Shown in pieces: positions 1-11,743 of a stretch of DNA of 64,000 nucleotides (position 1 is its first letter; every line of letters starts with the position of its first letter). Position numbers and translations under genes: made by a program. This DNA is from Pelagihabitans pacificus (GTDB lineage Bacteria > Bacteroidota > Bacteroidia > Flavobacteriales > Flavobacteriaceae): the NCBI RefSeq assembly GCF_009371985.2, contig NZ_VIKU02000001.1, forward strand, positions 992,001-1,056,000. The letters are read 5' to 3'. Under the pieces are notes generated by a model. It searched no databases and was not told the DNA's origin. It saw only the letters and a list, made by a program, of their open reading frames with translations.

Positions 1-1067
1 GAAACAATCCGGTCGGAAGCGAACAAGGCGTTCGCCTTGCCCAAATTACCATCGAAAGAGGTACTATCGTTCGCTAAAATGGCATCGTAACTCTGGAGAC
101 TCGTTTTAAAATCCCCCGTGTACATGCCCAAAGTCGCTCTTAAGGCCAAGACCCAGTTACGTCCGGAATGGGTGACAGACAGGCTATCGATCTGCTGCCG
201 TGCCTTGCCGAACTTGCGGTTCCATATCAAGGCCTGCACATGGCGTTCATAGGTTCGCTCGATAAGCTCGGTGTCTTTGAAGGTTCTTACTTTTATTTTC
301 GCACTTTCGGCCACCCGCTGGGCTTCCCTATTGTGCGCCCCGATATGTTCCGCAAGGGCGATACCGTTCAAAGCGGTAATCGAATCCTTTGGCGTAGTGG
401 CATAACGCCGGTAGGCAGCTTTGGCACTGTCCGTTTCCTTTGTGATCAAATATACATTGGCCAAGTTGAGCAACGCATCCTTATCTTCGGGAAAATCCGT
501 AAAGATTTCCTTCAACATTTCCTTTCCCCGAGGGTAGTCTTGCTTGTTCACAAAAGTGTTCGCATATCCAAGACGTATGTACTTTCGGGAGACTTTGGCG
601 CTTTCGTTCCCGGGCTGTAGTGCCAACGCCTTCTCGATCCACTCTAGGGCCACTGTGTACTCTTTTAGGTTGCCCAAGGTATTGGCATAGCCCAACAACG
701 CCCCGAAATTCTCTGGATACCGGGCTACCAACTCTGCATAAAGGGGCTTGGCCTTATCGTATTCCCCTCCCCATAGGAACGATTCGTTGTAATTGATCCG
801 TATCTCAAAATCATCGGGATAGGTTTTCAGAAGGCCGGCGAACAAACTCGTGGCCTTTTGGGGCTCACCACTAAGCCCTACTGCCCGACCATAACAGATT
901 TGGGCGGTCTTGTTATCGGGGTCAGATCGTAGGTACGTGCCAAAAAAAGATTCGGCCTGTTCAAAACGTCCCTTTTCCAAAAGGGTAAAGCCATTCTCCA
1001 AAGGGGCCTGCGCCGAAGTAAAAAGCGAGGACATCAATAAGGTGTAAACAAGTGCTGTTCGTAACAT
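1..1067 (-). CDS. Secreted TPR-repeat protein, 3' end outside window
   Basis: Read on the minus strand from ATG at 1067-1065, the frame stays open to position 1, giving at least 355 residues; the C-terminus lies outside the window. It begins with a signal peptide (MLRTALVYTLLMSSLFTSAQ) and continues as tandem TPR-like helices with recurring patterns such as G-x-A...L-x-x-Y-P-D/E-(N/D) and A-L-x-L-x-P-G-N. It is divergent from the STAS/flippase operon and shares its promoter region. By analogy with TPR proteins of exopolysaccharide secretion systems (PelB, BcsC, PgaA, AlgK) it may be a periplasmic or outer-membrane scaffold for polymer export. That role is inferred from context only, and no C-terminal barrel can be checked. 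Confidence 0.75.
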   Translation of the reverse strand, partial: MLRTALVYTLLMSSLFTSAQAPLENGFTLLEKGRFEQAESFFGTYLRSDPDNKTAQICYGRAVGLSGEPQKATSLFAGLLKTYPDDFEIRINYNESFLWGGEYDKAKPLYAELVARYPENFGALLGYANTLGNLKEYTVALEWIEKALALQPGNESAKVSRKYIRLGYANTFVNKQDYPRGKEMLKEIFTDFPEDKDALLNLANVYLITKETDSAKAAYRRYATTPKDSITALNGIALAEHIGAHNREAQRVAESAKIKVRTFKDTELIERTYERHVQALIWNRKFGKARQQIDSLSVTHSGRNWVLALRATLGMYTGDFKTSLQSYDAILANDSTSFDGNLGKANALFASDRIV

Positions 1068-1181: not shown

Positions 1182-1251
1182 CCATTGACCTACAGTAAAT
1201 CGCCATCCGTCGAAATCCATCCCAATAGAGCGTCAAATCGGTGGATATTTG
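1182..1251 (+). promoter_or_regulatory. Putative LytTR/AlgR-like activator site A plus -7 box
   Basis: Two 9-bp direct repeats, CCATTGACC (1182-1190) and CCATCCGTC (1203-1211), start 21 bp apart. The block CTACAG-N-AA-N4-CCATC begins at 1190. A GATATTTG box (1244-1251), one mismatch from TAnnTTTG, begins exactly 54 bp after the CTACAG start. The same architecture and spacing recur at 3000-3069 and 10465-10534. No -33 TTTG is seen, which fits an activator-dependent promoter. The two 9-mers with 12-bp spacing match the known layout of LytTR-domain binding sites; the regulator identity is inferred. Confidence 0.6.
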
Positions 1252-1294
1252 CCAGCATAAACCCAAATCATACGTAACCTAAAACAAAATCAGT

Positions 1295-1597
1295 ATGGCT
1301 TTACAAATCACAGAAACCCATGGCATGTTCCAAGTACTGGGTTCGCTAAGTGCCGAGACCTCGCGCACCTTGCACTCGCACATCCTACGATACCTGCACG
1401 AACGCAGCCAAATCATCCTCAACCTGGAAAAAATTAAGGATATGGACGCTTCTGCCGCCTATATGCTACAGCGGTTGTATCGCTATGCCATGCGCAACAA
1501 CTGCATTCTCATAATCATCGGGCAGGAAAACGAACGTATTCTTCCAGCGATGCACAAAACACGAACCTCTTATATCTTGAGCCATGACCGTGTTTAA
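1295..1597 (+). CDS. STAS-domain protein
   Basis: A 100-residue stand-alone STAS-like protein of the anti-sigma-factor-antagonist/MlaB type. It has the alternating strand/helix pattern, with the predicted loop DMDASAAYMLQRL (about residues 48-60) where STAS proteins carry their D-S/T-phosphoacceptor-helix motif. Here the usual serine is part of DASAA, so phosphorylation at Ser is possible but not certain. It is the first gene after site A and overlaps the flippase by 14 bp, so the two are translationally coupled. In polysaccharide loci, STAS proteins usually act as switch partners of kinases or phosphatases; such a partner is not in the window. Function in this locus is inference. Confidence 0.7.
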   Translation: MALQITETHGMFQVLGSLSAETSRTLHSHILRYLHERSQIILNLEKIKDMDASAAYMLQRLYRYAMRNNCILIIIGQENERILPAMHKTRTSYILSHDRV

Positions 1598-2816
1598 TAT
1601 CGCACAAAAAAAACTGTCGCCCGAACGCTTGTTCATGGGGAGTGTACTGTTGGTGAACGGGGGCAACTATCTGTACAACCTGGTCCTGGGTCGCCTTTTG
1701 GGACCTGAAGCCTTTGCCGATGCCGCTTTGATGGTTACATTATTACTGGTACTTTCCTTTGTCGGGATGACCTTTCAATTGACCACCGCCAAATTTGCCG
1801 TATTGTTCTCACATGATCAATGGCAGGCCTTTCAGCAAATCATGTACCGGTATGCGCTGATCATTGGTTGTTTTGCGGGTGCTTTGTTGGTCTTTTTTGC
1901 GGGCGAACTGCAAGTCGTGTTCAACACCGCTACCCCCAGCATGTTCATCATTTTCGGCCTGGGTGTGCCATTATACTTTTTGATGTCGGTCAACAGGGGT
2001 TCCTATCAAGGCCGGCAGCTCTTCACCAAGCTTTCAATTACCTACCAGACTGAAATGTGGAGCCGCTTGTTGCTCACGTTGGCCTTGTTGTTCGTGGCTC
2101 CCATGCACCCGTCCTTATTGGTTGCTTTGGGTATTGCATTTTCCTGCCTGTTCGGATTGATTCCTTCCGACATCAAAAACCTTCAGTGGCACCAAACCAA
2201 ACACTTGACCCCTGAAAATCTGGAACTCGTATCCCGATTCATAGTATTGACGGCTTGTTATGAGCTTACCCAAATCATGATTAACAACAGCGATATCTTA
2301 CTGGTAAAGCATTTTTTCGACCCTACGGAAGCCGGCCTGTATGCCTCGCTGGCCCTCATCGGGCGCGTAGTGTACTTTGTAGCCTGGATGTTCGTTATGT
2401 TGCTCTTGCCAGCGGTGGTGCAAAAACACAAAGATGGGGAGGCTACCACCCCCGTTCTCTTTAAATATGTGGGCTATGTGTCGCTTTTATCTACGACCAT
2501 CGTGATGGCCAGTTATCTCTTTCCTGAAACGATCATTGAACTTTTGTTCGGGGAGGATTATATCGACATGGCCGGACTTCTATGGCAGTACGCCCTGGCC
2601 ACCTCGCTCTTTGCCATCTCGAACATTTTTGCCTATTACTTTTTGTCTCTCGACCAATACGTTCCGGTAATCCTATCGGGTGTGCTGGGCGTTTCCCAAA
2701 TTATATTGATCGTATATTTTCACGATAGCCTACTAGAGGTCGTTCAAGCACAGATCATTGCGATGGTCGCCTTGTTGATTACACAACTGATCTACTTCGC
2801 CAAAAAGACCTTATAG
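1584..2816 (+). CDS. Polysaccharide flippase-like membrane protein (Wzx/MATE fold)
   Basis: A 410-residue polytopic membrane protein with about 12 hydrophobic segments. The N-terminus (GSVLLVNGGNYLYNLVLGRL, about residues 19-38) is typical of the oligosaccharide flippase/PST family (RfbX, PelG-like). Such proteins move lipid-linked or nascent polysaccharide units across the inner membrane. Length fits the family. It overlaps the STAS gene and is followed 33 bp later by a strong hairpin with a T-rich tail, so the STAS-flippase pair looks like a complete two-gene operon. Together with the GT4, GT-C-like and GT2 genes nearby it defines a surface or extracellular polysaccharide locus. The exact substrate cannot be told. 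Confidence 0.8.
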   Translation: MTVFNIAQKKLSPERLFMGSVLLVNGGNYLYNLVLGRLLGPEAFADAALMVTLLLVLSFVGMTFQLTTAKFAVLFSHDQWQAFQQIMYRYALIIGCFAGALLVFFAGELQVVFNTATPSMFIIFGLGVPLYFLMSVNRGSYQGRQLFTKLSITYQTEMWSRLLLTLALLFVAPMHPSLLVALGIAFSCLFGLIPSDIKNLQWHQTKHLTPENLELVSRFIVLTACYELTQIMINNSDILLVKHFFDPTEAGLYASLALIGRVVYFVAWMFVMLLLPAVVQKHKDGEATTPVLFKYVGYVSLLSTTIVMASYLFPETIIELLFGEDYIDMAGLLWQYALATSLFAISNIFAYYFLSLDQYVPVILSGVLGVSQIILIVYFHDSLLEVVQAQIIAMVALLITQLIYFAKKTL

Positions 2817-2849
2817 TTTACCTGCTTTTATGGTGGCCAACATGGCCTG

Positions 2850-2892
2850 GCCGGAAACACCTCCAACCTGTTTCCGGCTTTCTGTTTTTCCT
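2850..2892 (+). terminator. Rho-independent terminator after flippase
   Basis: Perfect 9-bp inverted repeat GCCGGAAAC (2850-2858) / GTTTCCGGC (2870-2878) with an 11-nt loop, followed by a T-rich stretch TTTCTGTTTTTCC. It lies 33 bp after the flippase stop codon and separates this operon from the GT4 gene, which has its own promoter (site B). Confidence 0.7.
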
Positions 2893-2931
2893 ATTTCTGC
2901 AGGGATTCCAACATACCATAAAGCGATTGGA

Positions 2932-2966
2932 TACAACCCGGAACGTAAAAACCCGGATGGGTTGTA
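2932..2966. repeat. Short inverted repeat upstream of GT4 promoter
   Basis: TACAACCC (2932-2939) and GGGTTGTA (2959-2966) form a perfect 8-bp inverted repeat with a 19-nt loop in the gap between flippase and GT4. No clean T-run follows. It could be a second terminator or a binding site; the sequence does not decide. Confidence 0.35.
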
Positions 2967-2999
2967 ACCGTTGATTTTTGCCTTATCGATACTACTTTC

Positions 3000-3069
3000 C
3001 CATTCGTCTACAGCAACCCCCCATCCATCCCAAACCATCTACAAAAACAAGGCTTAAAACGGATATTTG
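3000..3069 (+). promoter_or_regulatory. Putative LytTR/AlgR-like activator site B plus -7 box
   Basis: Direct repeats CCATTCGTC (3000-3008) and CCATCCATC (3021-3029) start 21 bp apart. CTACAG begins at 3008, and the GATATTTG box is at 3062-3069, again exactly 54 bp from the CTACAG start. It drives the GT4 gene, whose ATG is 41 bp downstream of the box. See sites A and C for the same layout. Confidence 0.6.
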
Positions 3070-3109
3070 TAGCTGAATTTCAACCCAATATCCATTAAAA
3101 CCTATCCTT

Positions 3110-4345
3110 ATGAAATTAGCCATCGTAACCGCTTATCCACCGAGCAAAGTAACCCTGACGGAGTACGGGTACCATTTGGTAAAACACTTTCGATTACAAA
3201 AGGAAGTATCCGAAATAGTTTTGATCACCGACCGTACAGAAGGTGAAAAAGACCTCTCCTTTGAGGAAGACGGTTGCAAGATCACCGTAAGGGAATGCTG
3301 GCGCTTCAACAGCTATCTGAATAGTATCAACATTTCCAAAACAATTTTGGAGACCCGACCCGATGCCATCTTGTTCAACCTACAGTTCCTGAAGTTCGGG
3401 GATAAAAAAATCCCTGCAGCCCTGGGTCTGATGCTTCCGTTGATATGCAGACTCAAAGGCATCCCGACCATCTCCTTACTCCATAACATATTGGAACAGG
3501 TAGATTTGGAGAATGCAGGGATCACTCAAAATAAGTGGTTACAAAAGGCCTATAATTTCATCGGAAGCACCCTCACCCGATTCGTTTTGGCCTCCGATGT
3601 GCTGGCCGTGACCATCAGCAAATACAAAACCATTCTTGAAAATAAATACAAGGCCCGTAATGTCGCCTTGGTACCCCATGGAGCATTTGAAACACCCCCC
3701 GAGCCCGATTATCGCCTCCCTTCAGGTCCCAAGCAAGTGATGGCCTTCGGTAAATTCGGTACCTACAAAAAAGTGGAAATCCTGATAGAAGCGGTCGAGC
3801 TGATCCGCGAACGGACCAAAGAAGATATCGAAATCGTCATTGCCGGAACCGATAGTCCCAACACTCCGGGCTATTTGGACAGAATGAAAGAACAGTATCA
3901 ATATGTATCTCAGCTTCGGTTTACGGGATATGTAGCGGAGGAAGAAGTGCCGGATATCTTTGGTCAAAGTGCGGTAGTGGTTTTTCCGTACACATCGACG
4001 ACCGGAAGTTCCGGGGTACTGCACCAGGCAGGAAGCTATGGAAAGGCCGTAGCCCTTCCCGATTTGGGTGACCTGGGCATTTTGGTCAAAGAGGAAGGAT
4101 ACCTAGGGGAATTCTTTGATCCCGGGAGCACCGAATCGCTGGCAGATGCCATCCAGAATATTCTGGCCCATGATGCCTATCGCGTACATCTTGGAATGAC
4201 CAATTACAAAGCGGCCTGTTCCCTACCCATGTCGGAAATCACGGAACGTTACATCGATTACTTTAAGGGCATACAATTTGCCAAATCGACCGGATTCGAT
4301 GTCAACCTCACTATTAAGAAAGAACAACCCACAAACACTCTTTAA
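3110..4345 (+). CDS. GT4-family glycosyltransferase
   Basis: A 411-residue GT-B fold transferase. The N-terminal acceptor domain starts MKLAIVTAYPPSKVTLTEYG. The C-terminal nucleotide-sugar domain contains GKFGTYKKVEILIEAVELI (about residue 210), the GYVAEEEVPDIFGQSAVVVFPY stretch (shown here only as its start and end motifs GYV...PDIF and VVVFPY), and TTGSSGVLHQAGSYGKAV, the retaining GT4 E-x7-E region in degenerate form with SSGVLHQA in place of the first Glu segment. It would add a sugar to a lipid-linked or nascent glycan on the cytoplasmic face. It is a single-gene unit between its own LytTR-like promoter and paired hairpins. Donor and acceptor are unknown. Confidence 0.8.
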   Translation: MKLAIVTAYPPSKVTLTEYGYHLVKHFRLQKEVSEIVLITDRTEGEKDLSFEEDGCKITVRECWRFNSYLNSINISKTILETRPDAILFNLQFLKFGDKKIPAALGLMLPLICRLKGIPTISLLHNILEQVDLENAGITQNKWLQKAYNFIGSTLTRFVLASDVLAVTISKYKTILENKYKARNVALVPHGAFETPPEPDYRLPSGPKQVMAFGKFGTYKKVEILIEAVELIRERTKEDIEIVIAGTDSPNTPGYLDRMKEQYQYVSQLRFTGYVAEEEVPDIFGQSAVVVFPYTSTTGSSGVLHQAGSYGKAVALPDLGDLGILVKEEGYLGEFFDPGSTESLADAIQNILAHDAYRVHLGMTNYKAACSLPMSEITERYIDYFKGIQFAKSTGFDVNLTIKKEQPTNTL

Positions 4346-4400
4346 AGCGCACACTTGTTTTCCGGACAGATAATGACCTATAGGTCGGCATTAAGAACAG

Positions 4401-4467
4401 ACCCCGACCGAAAGCGGCGGGGTTCAATACCCATCGAATTTCAAGGCGCCCAAGCTTTTGAAATTCG
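4401..4467. terminator. Paired hairpins between convergent genes
   Basis: Two stems lie between the convergent GT4 and hydrolase genes. The first is ACCCCG (4401-4406)/CGGGGT (4418-4423), extended by CCG (4408-4410)/CGG (4415-4417) around an AAAG loop. The second is a perfect 10-bp repeat CGAATTTCAA (4435-4444)/TTGAAATTCG (4458-4467). Neither has a clear T-run, so a bidirectional terminator role is inferred from position. Confidence 0.5.
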
Positions 4468-4539
4468 GGTCTCAAGAATGATTTTAGGTTAGGTTAAGTA
4501 GAAGAGGGGAATGGCTTGGTTAGCTGTTTCCCTTTTTGT

Positions 4540-6075
4540 TTAACGGCAATCGAAACAGAGGTAATTGTACGCAGCTTTTGGGGTCCCTTTTGAGTCGAGG
4601 ATCCCAAAATGTTTCTGCCGCTCCGTACGCCAGGGCAATCGCCCCACCACGGAAGAGGGTACTTCCTCAAAATCGTACAAAGTCCATAATAAAAAGGGAA
4701 TGTTCTCGGCTTGCAGCAACGGTTGTATCTCCGCATAGTAAGCTGCTTGCTCTTCCTCTGATCCCGTATATGCATTCCAAAGTCCATCATAGGAAGAAAA
4801 ACCATATTCCTGCAAGACCAGTGGCTTGTTCGGAACAGCATCGCGCAAACGGGTATACGCCTTCGGAAATTGTACCGCTTCCCGATAGTAATGAAACGAT
4901 ATCATATCGACTTCCCCGGAAAGATAGACCGCCGCCTCGGGACTGGACCAACCGATGGTCATCGGATGTTCCGAGTCCCACCGGCGCATTTCAATCATCA
5001 GCTGCCGCAACCATTTTAGTACCCGCTCCCTTCCCCTCGACTCGAAGTCCAGGTCCGGCTCATTCTTTAAGTCCCATGCTAACAGGGCTTTGGATTCTTT
5101 TAAAGTATTGACGATTTGTTCGGCATATCGGTGGGTCAAGGTCCAATCATACAAGGAATAATCCCCGTAAAAATCAAAAAGTGTCACAACTACCTTCAAA
5201 TCGTTTGCTTCGGCCAACACTAAGGTTTGTTTCAACCGCTCCAATTTTTCAGCATCTGGCTTCGCCTTTCCAAAAGCTGTGTACGGAACAAAAATACGGA
5301 TGGTATTCAATCCCATGTCCCGAATTTTCTTAAAATCGCTTTGGATAATACGGTCGTTGAAATTTGTCCCGAACATATTCCAAGGGGTTTGTTGGGGATA
5401 GTAATTGATTCCTTTGATTTGTTGGATGGCCTCTTCCTCCCCTAGGGAAGGTTCGGTGATTGAAGTCTTCGAATCCGGTTCCGAAGTTATTTCCTGCCAA
5501 TGACGCACACGCCAGAAACCATCCTCCAGCAATAGCAAGATCTGATAGCTTCGTATACTACGGCGCTTTGCTACCAATAACTTATTCCGGTAGACCTCTT
5601 CATAGGTTCGAACCTGATAATCGGTCAGAACCACCATTTTGCCGTCGGCACTGTAAAAATCAAGCCGCGGGTGATGTTCCAAAGTAGTGACCTTCACATG
5701 GGTTCCTTGCTGCCTGTTGAAATCCAGAATCTTATAAAGTTTGGTACGGGCACTATCGGTAAAATAGTCGGCCAGGCCTTCTGCTGAATTGGTCTCCAAA
5801 GCCCGGTTGCGAATGTACCAGGCACTGAGATAATCCCGTTCTATTTCTTGAAGTGTTGGTGATTCCATCGGCCGGCCCTCGACCTGCAAGGAATCCCAGA
5901 CCATTTTGGGCAGGTAGGCCTGATCAAGTGCTTTGGGCAAATGCAAGATCGAGGTGCGGTCCGCCCCGGTATTAAGATACGACCAAACCGAGCCGATACC
6001 GGCTAAAATGGCCGCATTCAATCCTAAAAAGGAGAGCAGTAGCACAATGCGGTATGTGGTCTTGTTTCCCCTCAT
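4540..6075 (-). CDS. Membrane-anchored clan GH-A (GH5-like) glycoside hydrolase with NTF2-like domain
   Basis: A 511-residue protein; I chose ATG at 6075-6073 because it overlaps the upstream stop as ATGA and starts right before a membrane anchor (MRGNKTTYRIVLLLSFLGL). An NTF2/SnoaL-like domain follows the anchor (about residues 85-205), then a TIM barrel. The barrel carries the acid/base Glu in DLKNEPDL (about residue 337) and the nucleophile Glu in LVLQEYGFSS (about residue 422), with FHYY between, as in the cellulase family. It is the last gene of a three-gene operon with a lipoprotein and a giant GT-C-like membrane protein. Hydrolases in such loci (BcsZ, PelA, PslG) trim or release polymer; that role is inferred here. 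Confidence 0.75.
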   Translation of the reverse strand: MRGNKTTYRIVLLLSFLGLNAAILAGIGSVWSYLNTGADRTSILHLPKALDQAYLPKMVWDSLQVEGRPMESPTLQEIERDYLSAWYIRNRALETNSAEGLADYFTDSARTKLYKILDFNRQQGTHVKVTTLEHHPRLDFYSADGKMVVLTDYQVRTYEEVYRNKLLVAKRRSIRSYQILLLLEDGFWRVRHWQEITSEPDSKTSITEPSLGEEEAIQQIKGINYYPQQTPWNMFGTNFNDRIIQSDFKKIRDMGLNTIRIFVPYTAFGKAKPDAEKLERLKQTLVLAEANDLKVVVTLFDFYGDYSLYDWTLTHRYAEQIVNTLKESKALLAWDLKNEPDLDFESRGRERVLKWLRQLMIEMRRWDSEHPMTIGWSSPEAAVYLSGEVDMISFHYYREAVQFPKAYTRLRDAVPNKPLVLQEYGFSSYDGLWNAYTGSEEEQAAYYAEIQPLLQAENIPFLLWTLYDFEEVPSSVVGRLPWRTERQKHFGILDSKGTPKAAYNYLCFDCR

Positions 6076-7295
6076 GGCAAATCGATGGTTTTGACCTTTC
6101 GTATGCCCGCTGTCTCGACCTGCAATTGATAAGTTCCCTCGGACCAAAAACCTGCCGAAAAATCGAAAATACCCAAACCGTTTCGGCTGGTCGTTCGTAA
6201 GTGCTTGACCAAATCGCCTTTGTCGTTGGTAATGGTAAGCTTTATAGGCATTCCGTCGGGAACCAGCTGCCCCATAAAGCTCTTCAATGGACCAATGGTC
6301 AGGGTTCGCGAGTCGTTGGAAAACAACACCTGATAGTCCAACACCGCCGATTCAAATTCTACCTTTAACGTATTACTCTTTGCCGCACCGGCAATGTAGG
6401 CGGTTATTTTCCAATGGGTACGTTGCATAGGATGCAGTAATCGGGCTTGCGCGATTCCGTTCAAGCTAGTTCCCGTGGTTTGCAGCCGATGACCTGCCTC
6501 ATCGATCACCTCGAAAGCCACTAAGGTACCGTCGCCGATGGTATTGCCGAAAGCGTCATGAACGCGATCCGTACGGAAGGTAATTACTTGGTTGCCATCG
6601 GCAAAGCCATGATTGCGTTCATAAGCGATTTGAAAATCGACAGGTTTGGCGGCGTACACCTTGCTTGTCAGTTCCTTTGAAATAACGTCGCCACAAGCAG
6701 CGGAAATCAACAATCGTCCTGTCTGGCTTGGAGATGAAAGTGTTGTCCATGCCACCATATGTTGGGTGCGCAGTACTTTTTCGATATATTTTTCCTTAAA
6801 TTGCTTTTTAGCGACCACTAGGGTACTGTCAGGCAACGGATTATCGTAACGGTCGACAGGTACCGATACCAACATGGAATAATCATCGCCCCCCGCACTA
6901 ATACTTCTGGGTCCCAGATAGGTTTCTATCCGTAACTTCTTCCCGATGGCCGGTCGGATGTACAAGGTACCCGATGCCTTGCTGTTTTGTCGGATAAAAA
7001 GTTCCCACTGGCAAGGCCCCGCCTTTTGGACGTAAGGGTCAGGTATCCGAAATCGGAGGGTGTCGTTTTTCGCTTCCGGTGTCAGAATTGAAGTCCCTAT
7101 ACCATTGCGCACGACCAAAAAAGCAGCTGTTCCAAGGTCGGATTCAAACTGTAGTTCGACGGAATCCCCTGCCTTGTAATGGTGTTGTTCCGTAAGCAGT
7201 CGTACCGGCACTTCGGGCTTTCGGGAAACCGTAGTTGTTTCGGTACAGGCTTGAAGCAACGCAAACACGATGATGATGGTTCGAAACGCTTTCAT
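6072..7295 (-). CDS. Lipoprotein with Ig-like beta domains, unknown function
   Basis: A 407-residue predicted lipoprotein: the signal sequence MKAFRTIIIVFALLQAC ends in a lipobox with Cys 17. The rest is beta-rich and looks like several Ig/invasin-like or 'big' domains, for example VPVDRYDNPLPDS and NTIGDGTLVAFEV, phrases typical of Ig-like repeats with D-x-x-G-N-P turns. A C-terminal stretch (GTYQLQVETAGIRK) resembles the carboxy-terminal strand of macroglobulin-type domains. Its ATG directly follows the TAA of the upstream gene and its stop overlaps the hydrolase start, so the three genes form a tightly coupled operon. It probably acts as an envelope partner of the membrane glycosyltransferase; no enzymatic motif is seen. 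Confidence 0.65.
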   Translation of the reverse strand: MKAFRTIIIVFALLQACTETTTVSRKPEVPVRLLTEQHHYKAGDSVELQFESDLGTAAFLVVRNGIGTSILTPEAKNDTLRFRIPDPYVQKAGPCQWELFIRQNSKASGTLYIRPAIGKKLRIETYLGPRSISAGGDDYSMLVSVPVDRYDNPLPDSTLVVAKKQFKEKYIEKVLRTQHMVAWTTLSSPSQTGRLLISAACGDVISKELTSKVYAAKPVDFQIAYERNHGFADGNQVITFRTDRVHDAFGNTIGDGTLVAFEVIDEAGHRLQTTGTSLNGIAQARLLHPMQRTHWKITAYIAGAAKSNTLKVEFESAVLDYQVLFSNDSRTLTIGPLKSFMGQLVPDGMPIKLTITNDKGDLVKHLRTTSRNGLGIFDFSAGFWSEGTYQLQVETAGIRKVKTIDLP

Positions 7296-10200
7296 TTAGT
7301 TGGGGTTTCCGATATAGCTATTGATATCTATTTTGATAAAGGAATACCCTTTTCCTTCCACTGGTTGCAACATTGCTTTCCTGTGCAGCAGGTTACGGTC
7401 CGGAAGCAGTTTGCTCGCAATATCCGTGTTGGGCAAGCCGTTCACGAAACAATTTTTCAGATTGGAGGCTATCACTTTTAACCCTTTCAAATCACTGGGT
7501 TCGTATTCAAATAATTGCTTCCGTTGCACCCGTACGCCCTCTTCCAAAAAGTGATGGTCGACCCATATCAATTCCTTTGCCTCATCGTAATAGGAGATCA
7601 ATAACTGGGGAATCGTCACTTCCTGCACCCCGGAGTTGAAAAGTATGCCATCCATTTTATCGGCAGACAAACGCAATTGCTGGAGGGCCAATTGTTTGTA
7701 AAGGTCCCTGTTGGCAATATTCCCGGCACATTGCAAATTAAACTGCGTCGGCTGCTCCGCCAAAGACACAGGTGTGAACTCGTCCGGGTCAAAGGTCGGT
7801 GGCAAGGTATCCTTAGTGGAGGACCAGGCAATCCCTTCAAAATCGACCTTAAAGGGGGTGGTCTCTTTGGGCATCAGTTTGTGTTTGATATGGTGCTTGG
7901 CCGCATACGTTGCCAGCTCCAGGTGATTGTCGTTATACAAAGTGCCCTTGATGACCGCATCGGCCGGTACGTTGTCGATATTCTGAAGCTCCCCGATAAT
8001 GCTGTACCGCCCTTCATGCTGCACCAATTTGGCGGACAGGATTTCGAGAACGGGTTGTTGTAGTACATCTTCATGATGGGTTTGTTGGGTCGCAATCCGT
8101 CGTCTACCGTGGTTCAAAAATGTCGTACCTGCGTCACTGAAGAGCTGATCAGGTGGTAAATCATTATCGAACTCCTTTGGGACAATGTGCCAAGAGCCAT
8201 CGCGCACGACCAACAGGTGATCATATGCTTTGTGTATTTTTTCCAAAGGGGTAATCCATTGGGTGGTCACTTTGGCCTTTGCCGTGCTCGCTGTGCTGTC
8301 AACAATGGTAACTTTAATGGCATCCAATTTTCCATAAGAGCTTAGAATACCGTCGGTGACAGAGACTTGGAGCATGTACTGCGACAAATCTACTCCACTT
8401 TGCGGGTCTAAATACGAATGGGCCCGTTCGAATTCCTTAAAATCCAAAGCGTCATAATAGGCTTTCACTACATTTTCGGGAGCGATTTGAGCGGTATTTT
8501 TAAGATAAAAATGATAGAGGCCATAGCCCAGACATAGTAAGACTGCCACGGCCCAAAAATGGTTCAGGTTCACCAAGGTCCGGGAAAACCCTTTGTAAGA
8601 TATCGCGTAATTCAGGTAAACGCCATCGGGCAGCGGTCTTGATTTAAGCATGCGGTACCAGACCCACTGAATATTGATCATAAAGGCCAATAGCACGGTC
8701 GACAACGGAATCAGCGCCCACATCATTTTTAGCTCTAAGGGCACTTCTTCCCTGGAGATCAGGGCCGGTAGGGGTGGTACGTTTAGTTTTTCCCATACCA
8801 TGATTCCATTTTCCAGCTGTTGCAGACGTTGCCAACCGCAGAAATAAAGAATGGGGTCGTAAAATTTATCGTTGGAAAAAATATATTTCAAATGGTATTT
8901 TTCGGGAACCGTTAGAAACTGCTGTAAGGAACCGATACCTTCCACCCCTCGGAACTTGGAATTTTCTATCCGTTCAATGGCACGGGTCGTTAGTTCGGGC
9001 AATCTACGGGCCGAATGGTAGTTGCCATCCACCGTCATAGCATTGGTCTGTGCCGACAACCACGCCATCTGATCTCCAAACCCTAGGGGCAGATAACGCC
9101 AATGATCGTGCTGGTCCTGGTTCAAGAAGTTGACGATGGGTAGCATATTGATCTTTTGGGGCTGGGATGGCCGAAAGTATCCTAGGCTCATGGTAAACAG
9201 CACCATGAAGAGCAGCCCCCCTGTTAAAAGTCCGCCTATAATCCGATGGTACACACTGCCAAAACGTTCCTGTAGCTGTGTCCGAAGATCCCCTTCGACC
9301 AATCGATAGGCAAGCTCCCCAAAAATGGGGAGAGCCATAATCGTGGCCCAGAGGGTAAAGCGGTCCAGTGTCAAGATGTTGAACGCGGTTTCTCCAAGTA
9401 GTTTTAAAGGAATCGGGGTGGTACCGCCCGTTCCCAAAAGTGCCAGCATCGAAAAAGAAAGTCCAAAAAAAAGATAACGCTTGCTGAAATACCGATACAA
9501 GAGATAGGGTAATACGAACAACAGTATTCCCCAGGGAATCAAGAAAAAGACCATTCCCGAAGAGGTGACCTCCAAAAAATTATCCCGGGACCCATGGGGA
9601 ATCGGCACCTGTGTAATCGGGTTTTTCTTCGAATTGATCCAATATGGTAAAATACAGACAACAATCAGCAGAAGCGATGAAAAACCAAAGCCCACGATGC
9701 GCCAAAACAACTTTTTAAATTCCCCCAGAAATATCTTGAAGGTTACTGCCTTATACATTTGTACCTGGTCTTTGGCCGCATCCATGATGACCATCCCGAT
9801 CAACGGGAAAATAAAAAAGACCATCCCGAAAATAGGGGTCACATGATGCGAGGTCACGGTAACAGCAATCAAAGAAAGACTGGTAGCCAAATACCGCGGT
9901 GTCCCCGTTTTGATCCATGAATAGATTTCCGGCAGGGCGTGCAATAACACCGAGAGCCCCACGATACTGGGCAGCTGGCCAAAAATATGTAAGGTCTCGA
10001 TAAAGGTCGAGGAAAAAACAGCCAACAGAGCAGTGTAACCCGCAACCCTGCGGTCTCCCGATATCAACAATCCGAAACGATACGCACCTGTGATAAAGAG
10101 TACTATGGCGATCAAGGCGACCGCAAACAATCCGAACTTGAGTCCGCCGATATAGGATAACAAAGCCATTGACTGATGCACCAATGGTGGATAGCCCTGT

Positions 10201-10382
10201 ACCGTAAATCCCGTGTACCACCGATATTCCCACGGCTCGAACCAACTATCGGCATAATGATCGGCAAAAAAAAGATGGATCAGTGCATCATAGGTCGTCT
10301 CCAAGGTGAAAAAGATGCTTGAACCGTGAAAGGCCAGTCCTATGAACAGTGAAATGATCAGTAAAACATTTGTTCGCTGCAT
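7296..10382 (-). CDS. Giant GT-C-like integral membrane protein with NTF2-like and FxLYD-like domains
   Basis: A 1028-residue protein. Residues 1 to about 460 are polytopic with many hydrophobic segments; the first loop has YDALIHLFFADHYAD and WYTGFTVQGYPPLVHQS, the pattern of the family often labelled '6-pyruvoyl-tetrahydropterin synthase-related' membrane proteins, which resemble GT-C glycosyltransferases. Further membrane spans lie near residues 560-580 and 615-635. The C-terminal part is extracytoplasmic: an NTF2/SnoaL-like domain (about 645-765), an FxLYD-like beta domain (SIIGELQNIDNVPADAVIKG, about 800-870) and an unknown tail. It is the first gene of a minus-strand operon divergent from the receiver-GT2 gene. 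A role in polymer assembly across the membrane is inferred. Confidence 0.7.
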   Translation of the reverse strand: MQRTNVLLIISLFIGLAFHGSSIFFTLETTYDALIHLFFADHYADSWFEPWEYRWYTGFTVQGYPPLVHQSMALLSYIGGLKFGLFAVALIAIVLFITGAYRFGLLISGDRRVAGYTALLAVFSSTFIETLHIFGQLPSIVGLSVLLHALPEIYSWIKTGTPRYLATSLSLIAVTVTSHHVTPIFGMVFFIFPLIGMVIMDAAKDQVQMYKAVTFKIFLGEFKKLFWRIVGFGFSSLLLIVVCILPYWINSKKNPITQVPIPHGSRDNFLEVTSSGMVFFLIPWGILLFVLPYLLYRYFSKRYLFFGLSFSMLALLGTGGTTPIPLKLLGETAFNILTLDRFTLWATIMALPIFGELAYRLVEGDLRTQLQERFGSVYHRIIGGLLTGGLLFMVLFTMSLGYFRPSQPQKINMLPIVNFLNQDQHDHWRYLPLGFGDQMAWLSAQTNAMTVDGNYHSARRLPELTTRAIERIENSKFRGVEGIGSLQQFLTVPEKYHLKYIFSNDKFYDPILYFCGWQRLQQLENGIMVWEKLNVPPLPALISREEVPLELKMMWALIPLSTVLLAFMINIQWVWYRMLKSRPLPDGVYLNYAISYKGFSRTLVNLNHFWAVAVLLCLGYGLYHFYLKNTAQIAPENVVKAYYDALDFKEFERAHSYLDPQSGVDLSQYMLQVSVTDGILSSYGKLDAIKVTIVDSTASTAKAKVTTQWITPLEKIHKAYDHLLVVRDGSWHIVPKEFDNDLPPDQLFSDAGTTFLNHGRRRIATQQTHHEDVLQQPVLEILSAKLVQHEGRYSIIGELQNIDNVPADAVIKGTLYNDNHLELATYAAKHHIKHKLMPKETTPFKVDFEGIAWSSTKDTLPPTFDPDEFTPVSLAEQPTQFNLQCAGNIANRDLYKQLALQQLRLSADKMDGILFNSGVQEVTIPQLLISYYDEAKELIWVDHHFLEEGVRVQRKQLFEYEPSDLKGLKVIASNLKNCFVNGLPNTDIASKLLPDRNLLHRKAMLQPVEGKGYSFIKIDINSYIGNPN

Positions 10383-10464
10383 GTCAAAACTGTAGGAAAA
10401 TATAACAGGATAAAGCTAGGAATATTGTGGAGCTTTCCGCTTATCGGCCATCGAACCGAAACGA

Positions 10465-10534
10465 CCGTTCGTCTACAGAAAGCGACCATCGAACTTTTTG
10501 GCCGCGAATCGGCAGTCTATCGAGGATATATTTG
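10465..10534 (+). promoter_or_regulatory. Putative LytTR/AlgR-like activator site C plus -7 box
   Basis: Direct repeats CCGTTCGTC (10465-10473) and CCATCGAAC (10486-10494) start 21 bp apart. CTACAG begins at 10473 and the perfect TAnnTTTG box TATATTTG is at 10527-10534, again a 54-bp offset. The first repeat with its flanking A reads ACCGTTCGTC, which matches the known AlgR recognition core. An extra CCATCGAAC copy is at 10448-10456. The site lies between the divergent GT-C-like operon and the receiver-GT2 gene. Confidence 0.62.
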
Positions 10535-10600: not shown

Positions 10601-11743
10601 ATGAAAATTTTAGCTATCGACGATCAACAACTGATTCGTTTATCCGTAGAAAAGAAACTGACCGAAAGGGGCTATGAGGTGCTAACTGCCGAGAGTGGAC
10701 AAGAAGGGACGGTTTTGTTCGATTCGTTTCAACCTGATTTGGTCATCTTGGATATCAATATGCCCGATATGTCCGGACTAGAGGTCGTCAAACACATTCG
10801 AATTACCAAAAACCTTCCAACTCCTATTTTGGTGATGTCGGGCAATACCAACGAAACCGTTATTATGAACGGATTCCATCTAGGCATCGACGACTACATG
10901 AAAAAACCGGTGAGCCTGGATGAAATGGTGGCCCGTGTCGAACGTATTTTGGGTAAACGACCCGATAAAATCCCTGTAAGAAACTCTATTGAAACACAAA
11001 TGCTTCAGAAGTATTGTGTGGGAGTGGTAATTCCCTGTTACAACGAAGAAGAACGGCTTTCAAGCACTGTATTTCAATCCTTTGCACAAAAAAACCTAGG
11101 ATACCATTTGTGCTTCGTCAACGATGGAAGTACCGACAATACGTTAGAGGTCTTGGAAGAACTGCGAAAGGGCAATGAGGCGATGATCAGTATTTACAAC
11201 TGCGAAAAAAATGGCGGGAAGGCAGAGGCGGTGCGGCGGGGAATGTTATATCTCGCCAAGGATTCCCAGCTCGACTATATTGGCTACCTGGATGCCGACC
11301 TTTCGACCGATTTCAGCGACTTTGATGATTTGGTGGCTACCATAGACCGTTCCGAATTCAAAATTGTCAGTGGATCACGTATCAGCCGCATGGGGGCCGA
11401 CATCACTAAGGAATCGGCCCGAAAGGTAATTAGTAAGACCATCAACCTGATTATCCGGAACATCGTAGGGATGCCTTTTAAGGATACCCAATGCGGAGCC
11501 AAGATTATGGAGCGTTCCTTAGTCCCCGTCGTGTTCGAAAAGTCGTTCATTACCCGTTGGCTGTTCGATGTCGAAATCTTCATCCGTATGCGAAAACATT
11601 TCGGAAAAGAACGGGTTCAACAGTTTATTTGTGAACAACCTTTAAGAAGATGGATCCATGCCGACGGTTCGAAGCTCTCGATGACGGATTCCGTAAAAAT
11701 TGTAGGGCAACTGGCCCGGATTGCCATACATTATCAAAAGTGA
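10601..11743 (+). CDS. Response-regulator receiver domain fused to GT2 glycosyltransferase
   Basis: A 380-residue fusion. Residues 1-120 are a complete CheY-like receiver: acidic pair D7-D8, phosphoacceptor D51 in LVILDINMPDMSG, switch residue S80 in LVMSGN, and K102 in DDYMKKP. After a short linker, residues 139-380 are a GT2 domain of the DPM1/ALG5 (polyprenyl-phosphate sugar transferase) type, with VVIPCYNEEERL (142-153), VNDGSTD (173-179), NGGKAEAVRRG (204-214) and the metal-binding DAD (231-233). No membrane segment is seen. All key residues of both halves are present, so phosphorylation could control sugar transfer directly. It has its own LytTR-like promoter. The histidine kinase is not in the window. 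Confidence 0.85.
   Translation: MKILAIDDQQLIRLSVEKKLTERGYEVLTAESGQEGTVLFDSFQPDLVILDINMPDMSGLEVVKHIRITKNLPTPILVMSGNTNETVIMNGFHLGIDDYMKKPVSLDEMVARVERILGKRPDKIPVRNSIETQMLQKYCVGVVIPCYNEEERLSSTVFQSFAQKNLGYHLCFVNDGSTDNTLEVLEELRKGNEAMISIYNCEKNGGKAEAVRRGMLYLAKDSQLDYIGYLDADLSTDFSDFDDLVATIDRSEFKIVSGSRISRMGADITKESARKVISKTINLIIRNIVGMPFKDTQCGAKIMERSLVPVVFEKSFITRWLFDVEIFIRMRKHFGKERVQQFICEQPLRRWIHADGSKLSMTDSVKIVGQLARIAIHYQK

Follow-up and report, generated by a model that had tools for sequence, protein, structure and literature searches.

A fixed-geometry direct repeat in Flavobacteriaceae polysaccharide loci and its predicted H-NOX-linked REC-LytTR activator

LytTR proteins are known to bind direct repeats that are spaced by 12 bp and lie close to the -35 region, and to regulate their own expression (PMC6193735). 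H-NOX genes adjoin genes for histidine kinases or cyclic di-GMP (c-di-GMP) enzymes (PMC6769237), and the H-NOX pathways described in the available passages of two reviews are those of Proteobacteria (PMC6769237, PMC8738867). In Vibrio and Shewanella, H-NOX bound to nitric oxide (NO) inhibits its kinase (PMC6769237); in Vibrio fischeri, the kinase HahK likely acts via the SypF HPt on the syp genes, and H-NOX inhibits in an NO-dependent manner (PMC8738867). Here we analyzed a stretch of 64,000 nt from Pelagihabitans pacificus (GCF_009371985.2, NZ_VIKU02000001.1, positions 992,001-1,056,000 of the forward strand; hereafter the window), in which three promoters of a polysaccharide locus carry a LytTR-type direct repeat at a fixed distance from a -7 box. 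Judging from the sequence, we consider it highly probable that these repeats are bound by a single REC-LytTR activator that controls its own operon, which also encodes an H-NOX protein, together with the polysaccharide genes. Positions without a prefix refer to the window; C1 denotes contig coordinates and L018 the numbering of the own locus (L018:9822-9935 = C1:989822-989935).

Direct repeats and promoter geometry

Three repeats, each followed by a box, are present in the window:

1182..1211, + strand: direct repeat 1, LytTR-type, CCATTGACC-N12-CCATCCGTC, STAS/flippase promoter, promoter-model E 7.8e-15
3000..3029, + strand: direct repeat 2, CCATTCGTC-N12-CCATCCATC, glycosyltransferase promoter, promoter-model E 3.6e-16
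10465..10494, + strand: direct repeat 3, CCGTTCGTC-N12-CCATCGAAC, REC-GT2 promoter, promoter-model E 4.7e-8
1244..1251, + strand: -7 box of site 1, GATATTTG, 54 bp past CTACAG, putative start at ~1256
3062..3069, + strand: -7 box of site 2, GATATTTG, putative start at ~3074
10527..10534, + strand: -7 box of site 3, TATATTTG, putative start at ~10539

The first-pass annotation had reported the repeat pairs at 1182/1203, 3000/3021 and 10465/10486 with a 21-bp period, and xATATTTG boxes at 1244, 3062 and 10527, 54 bp after CTACAG (1190, 3008 and 10473); all positions and distances were reproduced exactly. Single units are imperfect, with 3 mismatches to CCATTCGTC in the first unit of site 1 and 4 in the second unit of site 3. 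The window contains three copies of CTACAG-N40-60-ATATTTG, all identically spaced, and none on the opposite strand, and the three window sites are the only exact matches to CTACAG-N-AA-N4-CCATC in the 4.56-Mb genome. When the window was shuffled 200 times with its dinucleotide content preserved, the latter pattern never appeared (3 observed), and CTACAG-N49-ATATTTG appeared at most once (mean 0.005, 3 observed). The first-pass annotation had likewise judged the shared spacing very unlikely to be due to chance. Chance as the origin of the motif was rejected on the basis of these genome matches and shuffles, together with the promoter-model search described below. The proposed invariance of CTACAG-N-AA-N4-CCATC held for the window sites and failed for relatives, in which T, C and T stand in place of C, G and A at motif columns in 21%, 30% and 24% of 178 promoters.

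When one mismatch was allowed, the genome contained 16 matches to CTACAG-N-AA-N4-CCATC, 13 of them inexact, and both repeat units were found in only one of the 13 (C1:985198); the other 12 had 5-8 mismatches in the first unit and no TATTTG within 200 bp. A fourth site, with the perfect repeat CCATTCGTC-TACAGCAAATTT-CCATTCGTC, lies at C1:985190-985219, 6.8 kb upstream of the window, and its box register is occupied by GCATATTG, with a putative start near C1:985264. Searching the whole genome for the two-unit pattern with 3 mismatches gave 9 matches, including the perfect site, site 2 and one that overlaps the perfect site, and a reversed-pattern control gave 1 + 2. The two-unit pattern was thus too loose for a whole genome, and we therefore built a sequence-only promoter model of 98 positions from 70 promoters of the flippase and GT4 groups (GT4 is our label for the Pfam 'group 1' glycosyltransferase), taken from 147 non-redundant promoters; window sites 1 and 2 are among the 70, and site 3 is outside the model. 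In the own genome, the model found six places with E<0.1, all on the + strand and within 17.4 kb (C1:985173-1002537), four of which, including site 3 and the perfect site, were absent from the training set. The weakest of the six had E 0.07, and the next genome match had E 4.8. Random scatter of the motif over the genome, which the first-pass annotation had held would speak against a shared regulon, was looked for here and not seen. Three of the six places are outside the window, namely the site before the sensor operon and two further sites at L018:9710 and L018:10054. The search scored 150 of 1663 first-look candidates (~20 candidates per genome in the family and order searches below), so weak regulon members may be missed.

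Conservation was then assessed in 81 loci, comprising the own locus and the best 80 of 513 loci retrieved with the regulator; named records among them belong to Maribacter, Arenibacter, Muriicola, Cellulophaga, Zobellia and Eudoraea. LytTR is present in all 81 by construction, and their agreement therefore shows conservation of the motif, not by itself which protein reads it. Across 80 loci, repeats with up to 3 mismatches numbered 73 on the + strand and 1 on the - strand, compared with 11 on both strands of the reversed sequence. A two-unit matrix of 45 positions, refined on the same loci and with the fifth-best score in reversed sequence as its threshold, gave 433 matches on the + strand versus 20 on the - strand; the five loci without a match (L063, L072, L076, L090 and L094) are contigs shorter than 5 kb. 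Adjacent matches 21 bp apart often represent one site, and the matches were grouped into 235 clusters in 76 loci. Conservation of the repeats in related loci, which had been proposed as a check, was most complete before the sensor operon, where a site is present in all 74 loci with enough sequence.

The spacing recurs in these loci. Of the 238 strong half-sites, 66 have a second unit at distance 21, and each of the remaining distances between 9 and 45 accounts for 11 at most. Because the anchoring matrix does not include the box, the box position is an independent test: among 179 anchored sites (of the 235 clusters, those with a score >=25 and 160 bp available), TTTG stands at offset 66, which corresponds to the 54-bp distance, in 113 and at offset 87, one period on, in 28, and the mean count over offsets 30-129, peaks included, is 2.1. 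The logo of 178 promoters selected for TTTG in register consists of CCATTCGTCTACAGTAAA, a weaker CCATCCACCTA 21 bp on and the box GATATTTG, accompanied by a weak half-site 21 bp before and a faint A/T tract. In the box, G usually takes the place of the first T, and no -33 element apart from the weak A/T tract is conserved in the 178 promoters; we read these two features as signs of a probably weak core promoter that depends on an activator. The Flavobacterium sigma-A box TAnnTTTG covers -12 to -5 (PMC9723704), which would place the half-sites at ~ -74 to -66 and -53 to -45. The repeats of LytTR systems most often end 10 bp above -35 (PMC6193735). A second conserved word, ~CGGAAGTnCGA, lies above the repeats in many flippase promoters (~1163-1176 in the window) and may belong to the divergent TPR gene.

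Linkage to a REC-LytTR gene and its sensor operon

The perfect site stands before five genes on the same strand:

L018:5285-5686, operon strand: REC (Pfam), own copy without a Pfam DNA-binding domain
L018:5764-6306, operon strand: HNOB/H-NOX (PF07700, 123 bits)
L018:6284-8653, operon strand: histidine kinase with several PAS domains (Pfam), directly after H-NOX
L018:8656-8976, operon strand: HPt-like protein of 106 aa, assigned by fold likeness, no Pfam match
L018:8973-9683, operon strand: REC-LytTR (Pfam)

A LytTR-type response regulator had been predicted without being seen, and such a gene does exist 2.3 kb outside the window (C1:988973-989683; Response_reg 69 bits, LytTR 70.9 bits in Pfam), in the operon bearing the best motif copy. 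Its LytTR domain is 79-94% identical across 32 aligned relatives, and a profile search of the PDB with this domain gave one weak match (3d6w, E 8.4e-5). The conserved LytTR-domain motif FhRhHRS (PMC4227749) reads FLQIHRS here, with H, R and S kept and Q at the expected R.

For the HPt-like protein, residues V55, H56, K57, H60 and K61 are invariant in 35 sequences. Its predicted model is all-helical (mean predicted local distance difference test score, pLDDT, 94), and HPt proteins account for all five top-ranked PDB chains, which come from three entries (TM 0.70-0.77, probability 1.00). In H-NOX, the proximal His (His104) and the YxSxR motif (YSSSR) are kept, aligning with their counterparts in solved chains that include 6bde and 4u99; we take these residues to play their usual H-NOX roles. 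The nearest solved chains are 6bde (E 1.3e-58) and 6bdd (E 8.2e-58), the latter from Kordia algicida (PMC7356049). Of the two kinds of gene that adjoin H-NOX elsewhere, the histidine kinase is present here, and a Pfam scan of the operon matched no c-di-GMP enzyme. Directly upstream of the sensor operon, L018:182-2813 encodes a TPR histidine kinase and a NarL-type regulator.

Across 199 genomes of the family, the presence of the motif tracks this orthologue, consistent with the earlier claim that a LytTR-type regulator stands behind it. With orthologues called at E<=1e-60 (82 of 199 genomes positive) and the motif at E<=1e-4, 67 genomes have both, none has the motif only, 15 have LytTR only and 117 have neither. 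With the motif at E<=0.01, 78 have both and 105 have neither; the discordant genomes are taken up below. H-NOX is present in 78 of the 199 genomes, and 72 of these also have LytTR; in 67 of the 72, H-NOX is encoded no more than 10 kb upstream of LytTR and on the same strand. LytTR occurs with no H-NOX in ten genomes, of which 8 carry the motif at E<=0.01 and 6 at E<=1e-4; of the six genomes in the opposite state, with H-NOX and no LytTR, 4 carry it at E<=0.01 and none at E<=1e-4. The stronger motif matches thus follow LytTR and not H-NOX, in small numbers of genomes. Four loci (L089, L104, L112 and L115) have REC and LytTR, no match to H-NOX, this kinase or the HPt-like protein, and the motif still before REC, which fits LytTR as the reader because the receiver protein, in its own-genome copy, has no Pfam DNA-binding domain. 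A sample of 196 genomes from the order, with many Flavobacteriaceae among them, had the motif in 15 at E<=1e-3; five of these belong to other families, with one match each (E 5.8e-5 to 9.5e-4), and were treated as noise.

Proposed mechanism and alternative explanations

Overall, we propose a putative mechanism for this regulon. The binding of gas, probably NO, by H-NOX would raise or lower the activity of the kinase, and phosphate would most likely pass from the kinase to REC, then to HPt and then to REC-LytTR. REC-LytTR would bind immediately above the -33 region; a weak third half-site lies another period upstream. The phosphorylated protein would activate its own operon in positive autoregulation. 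It would also control two genes behind LytTR, for a 37-aa peptide and, in relatives, for a DUF4114 protein secreted by the type IX secretion system (T9SS). The same protein would activate the polysaccharide genes behind the window sites:

1295..1597, + strand: STAS-domain protein (Pfam STAS), first gene behind site 1
1584..2816, + strand: polysaccharide flippase-like protein (Polysacc_synt_3), behind site 1
3110..4345, + strand: glycosyltransferase, Pfam 'group 1', behind site 2
10601..11743, + strand: REC-GT2, a receiver domain joined to a family-2 glycosyltransferase, behind site 3

The receiver domain of REC-GT2 suggests that this polysaccharide enzyme may itself take phosphate from the relay. 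We regard the complete picture, a family-wide NO-response regulon in which a four-step H-NOX relay with LytTR output governs its own operon, exopolysaccharide, the DUF4114 protein and a 37-aa membrane peptide and also acts on the REC-GT2 enzyme via its receiver domain, as an evenly balanced proposal. Sensor and polysaccharide promoters were compared at the sites whose box is good (53 of 76 and 107 of 119, respectively), with relatedness ignored: the second half-site averages 2.3 mismatches at sensor promoters versus 3.8 at polysaccharide promoters (Mann-Whitney p 1.3e-7), and the upstream half-site 4.6 versus 5.8. This pattern may reflect stronger binding at the regulator's own operon.

Several observations weigh against a single activator with this input and these targets. 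In the same comparison, again with relatedness ignored, the first half-site is slightly worse at sensor promoters (1.4 versus 0.9 mismatches, p 0.018). With the motif called at E<=0.01, twelve of the 199 genomes are motif-positive and lack an orthologue at E<=1e-60, and four show the reverse; four of the 12 (G049, G066, G106 and G180) have H-NOX. A site is present before STAS in 22 of 33 loci (missing in 11), within 700 bp before the flippase in 55 of 66 (missing in 11), before the group-1 glycosyltransferase in 45 of 62 (missing in 17) and within 350 bp of REC-GT2 in just 5 of 25 (missing in 20); where REC-GT2 has no near site, further genes of the locus often precede it. Behind LytTR, a site within 650 bp is present in just 29 of 77 loci, and TTTG in register is missing from 57 of the 235 clusters. 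The best E value of the HPt structure matches is 0.05. Moreover, the genome encodes 22 LytTR domains, so cross-binding is possible, and the 10 genomes with LytTR and no H-NOX, together with the 6 in the reverse state, imply that gas sensing is not obligatory.

The alternative that survives best leaves the regulon intact and changes its input: the signal could be oxygen or redox, or H-NOX could only tune a kinase that answers another signal. The several PAS domains of the kinase and the lack of H-NOX in 10 of the 82 LytTR genomes favor this reading, which we consider possible and rather unlikely, given that H-NOX lies upstream of LytTR, close by and on the same strand, in nearly all genomes with both, and that it retains the aligned proximal His and YxSxR. 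We think it unlikely that LytTR represses, or loops between sites, instead of activating. Three phased half-sites would allow oligomers, and the H-NOX-linked regulator HnoC of Shewanella is a repressor (PMC8738867); however, the fixed position of the repeats upstream of the core promoter argues for an activator, and so do the usual G at the first box base and the lack of a conserved -33 element, which fit a weak core promoter in need of one.

It is less likely still that another of the 22 LytTR proteins, or the NarL-type regulator encoded with the TPR kinase just upstream, reads the repeats and that the linked REC-LytTR is incidental. Both candidates are at hand in the genome; however, the motif tracks this orthologue over the 199 genomes and precedes the operon of this very gene in all 74 loci, and just 3 of the 81 loci gave a match to the NarL-type neighbor. 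Promoters of sigma-54 have -24/-12 elements, and no logo column exceeds 0.3 bits at offsets 46-61 in the 178 promoters selected for TTTG, which means that no conserved element lies 12 bp above the box; we know of no sigma-factor element that is a 21-bp direct repeat 33-62 bp above the box. Although the first base of the box differs from that of TAnnTTTG, it is very improbable that the 54-bp block is a sigma-factor signature (e.g., of extracytoplasmic function, ECF, sigma factors or sigma-54) with no activator site, as the box retains TTTG, the core of the sigma-A box in flavobacteria (PMC9723704), and the co-occurrence is with the LytTR gene.

Regulon members, neighboring genes and comparison with known systems

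Besides the polysaccharide genes, activation by REC-LytTR would extend to the reading frames behind the two other sites outside the window. These and two further genes beside the sites are as follows:

L018:9822-9935, behind LytTR: hydrophobic peptide, own copy 37 aa, MKALSVLHTALKTLITGLMGVLSCVAIATTFSLVGLI, with its own motif copy at L018:9710
L018:10149-10355 (C1:990149-990355), behind the motif copy at L018:10054: 68-codon reading frame
1..1067, - strand: window part of a TPR protein (L018:11007-13067) with an outer-membrane-porin-like match, divergent from site 1
7296-10382, - strand: protein of 1028 aa, unmatched in Pfam and NCBIfam

Twelve of the 80 other loci have a match to a peptide of 36-37 residues directly behind LytTR (tblastn E<=0.01). 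The 68 codons matched no Pfam or NCBIfam family. In 8 loci, the same position is occupied by a protein of 820-949 aa, with DUF4114 and a T9SS type A sorting domain in all four relatives scanned (L057, L061, L096 and L122). The 68 codons resemble both ends of these relatives, and the frame therefore looks like a shrunken remnant whose promoter was kept. The TPR protein belongs to the locus, and site 1 might control it as well. The 1028-aa protein stands beside GH5 and Ig-like genes in many related loci, and one full-length relative was recovered. Beside the polysaccharide locus, window positions 12160-41512 hold fucose- and glucuronate-type catabolic genes, among them fucose isomerase, an FGGY kinase, UxaC, UxuA and a TRAP transporter.

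H-NOX, whose reviewed pathways (see above) are proteobacterial, is here tied to a predicted LytTR output. We found no description of a LytTR output of an H-NOX relay, or of this family-wide regulon, in the open-licence literature; a review of NO and quorum sensing names both H-NOX and LytTR, and its LytTR passage concerns AgrA, and both terms also occur in a paper on Geobacter chemotaxis. For exopolysaccharide genes in 82 of the 199 species sampled from the family, the analysis offers a candidate regulator, a probable signal and a promoter code whose geometry is fixed. The motif itself was found in 67 of the 199 at E<=1e-4, and the regulon can be read from further genomes. A small 37-aa protein and a surface protein are named as likely members.

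Direct repeats with 12-bp spacing, autoregulation and the half-site CCGTTCGTC are already known for LytTR proteins. AgrA, VirR and PlnC/D are likewise REC-LytTR regulators whose repeats lie ~12 bp apart, just above the core promoter; in contrast, the present system has a flavobacterial promoter with the box GATATTTG, a weak third phased half-site, FLQIHRS in place of FhRhHRS and a phosphorelay with H-NOX as its predicted input. The repeats of Streptococcus LytTR systems also stand on the regulator's own operon (PMC6193735, PMC4064291). Among these, the LytTR regulatory systems (LRS) of Streptococcus mutans share LytTR, 12-bp-spaced repeats and autoregulation (PMC6193735) but pair LytTR with a membrane protein (PMC6193735), whereas the operon described here encodes a putative phosphorelay; a cognate membrane protein of the LRS type is not among its REC, HNOB, kinase, HPt-like and REC-LytTR products, in which transmembrane helices were not searched for. 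The core recognized by AlgR of Pseudomonas aeruginosa is identical to the half-site CCGTTCGTC of site 3, and both regulators would serve an exopolysaccharide (PMC4064291). However, AlgR sites are not necessarily 12-bp-spaced repeats, and two of the three algD sites lie 394 and 470 bp upstream (PMC4064291).

On the sensory side, the HnoC network of Shewanella also has an H-NOX-linked transcription factor and a transcriptional feedback loop (PMC8738867); HnoC, however, represses, and the operon here has no matched c-di-GMP enzyme. The nearest analogue of the proposed mechanism is the H-NOX/HahK/SypF system of Vibrio fischeri, in which H-NOX, a kinase and an HPt likewise lead to an exopolysaccharide regulon (PMC8738867). 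Unlike that system, the one proposed here likely has a LytTR output, with sensor, relay and regulator encoded in one operon of the Flavobacteriaceae.

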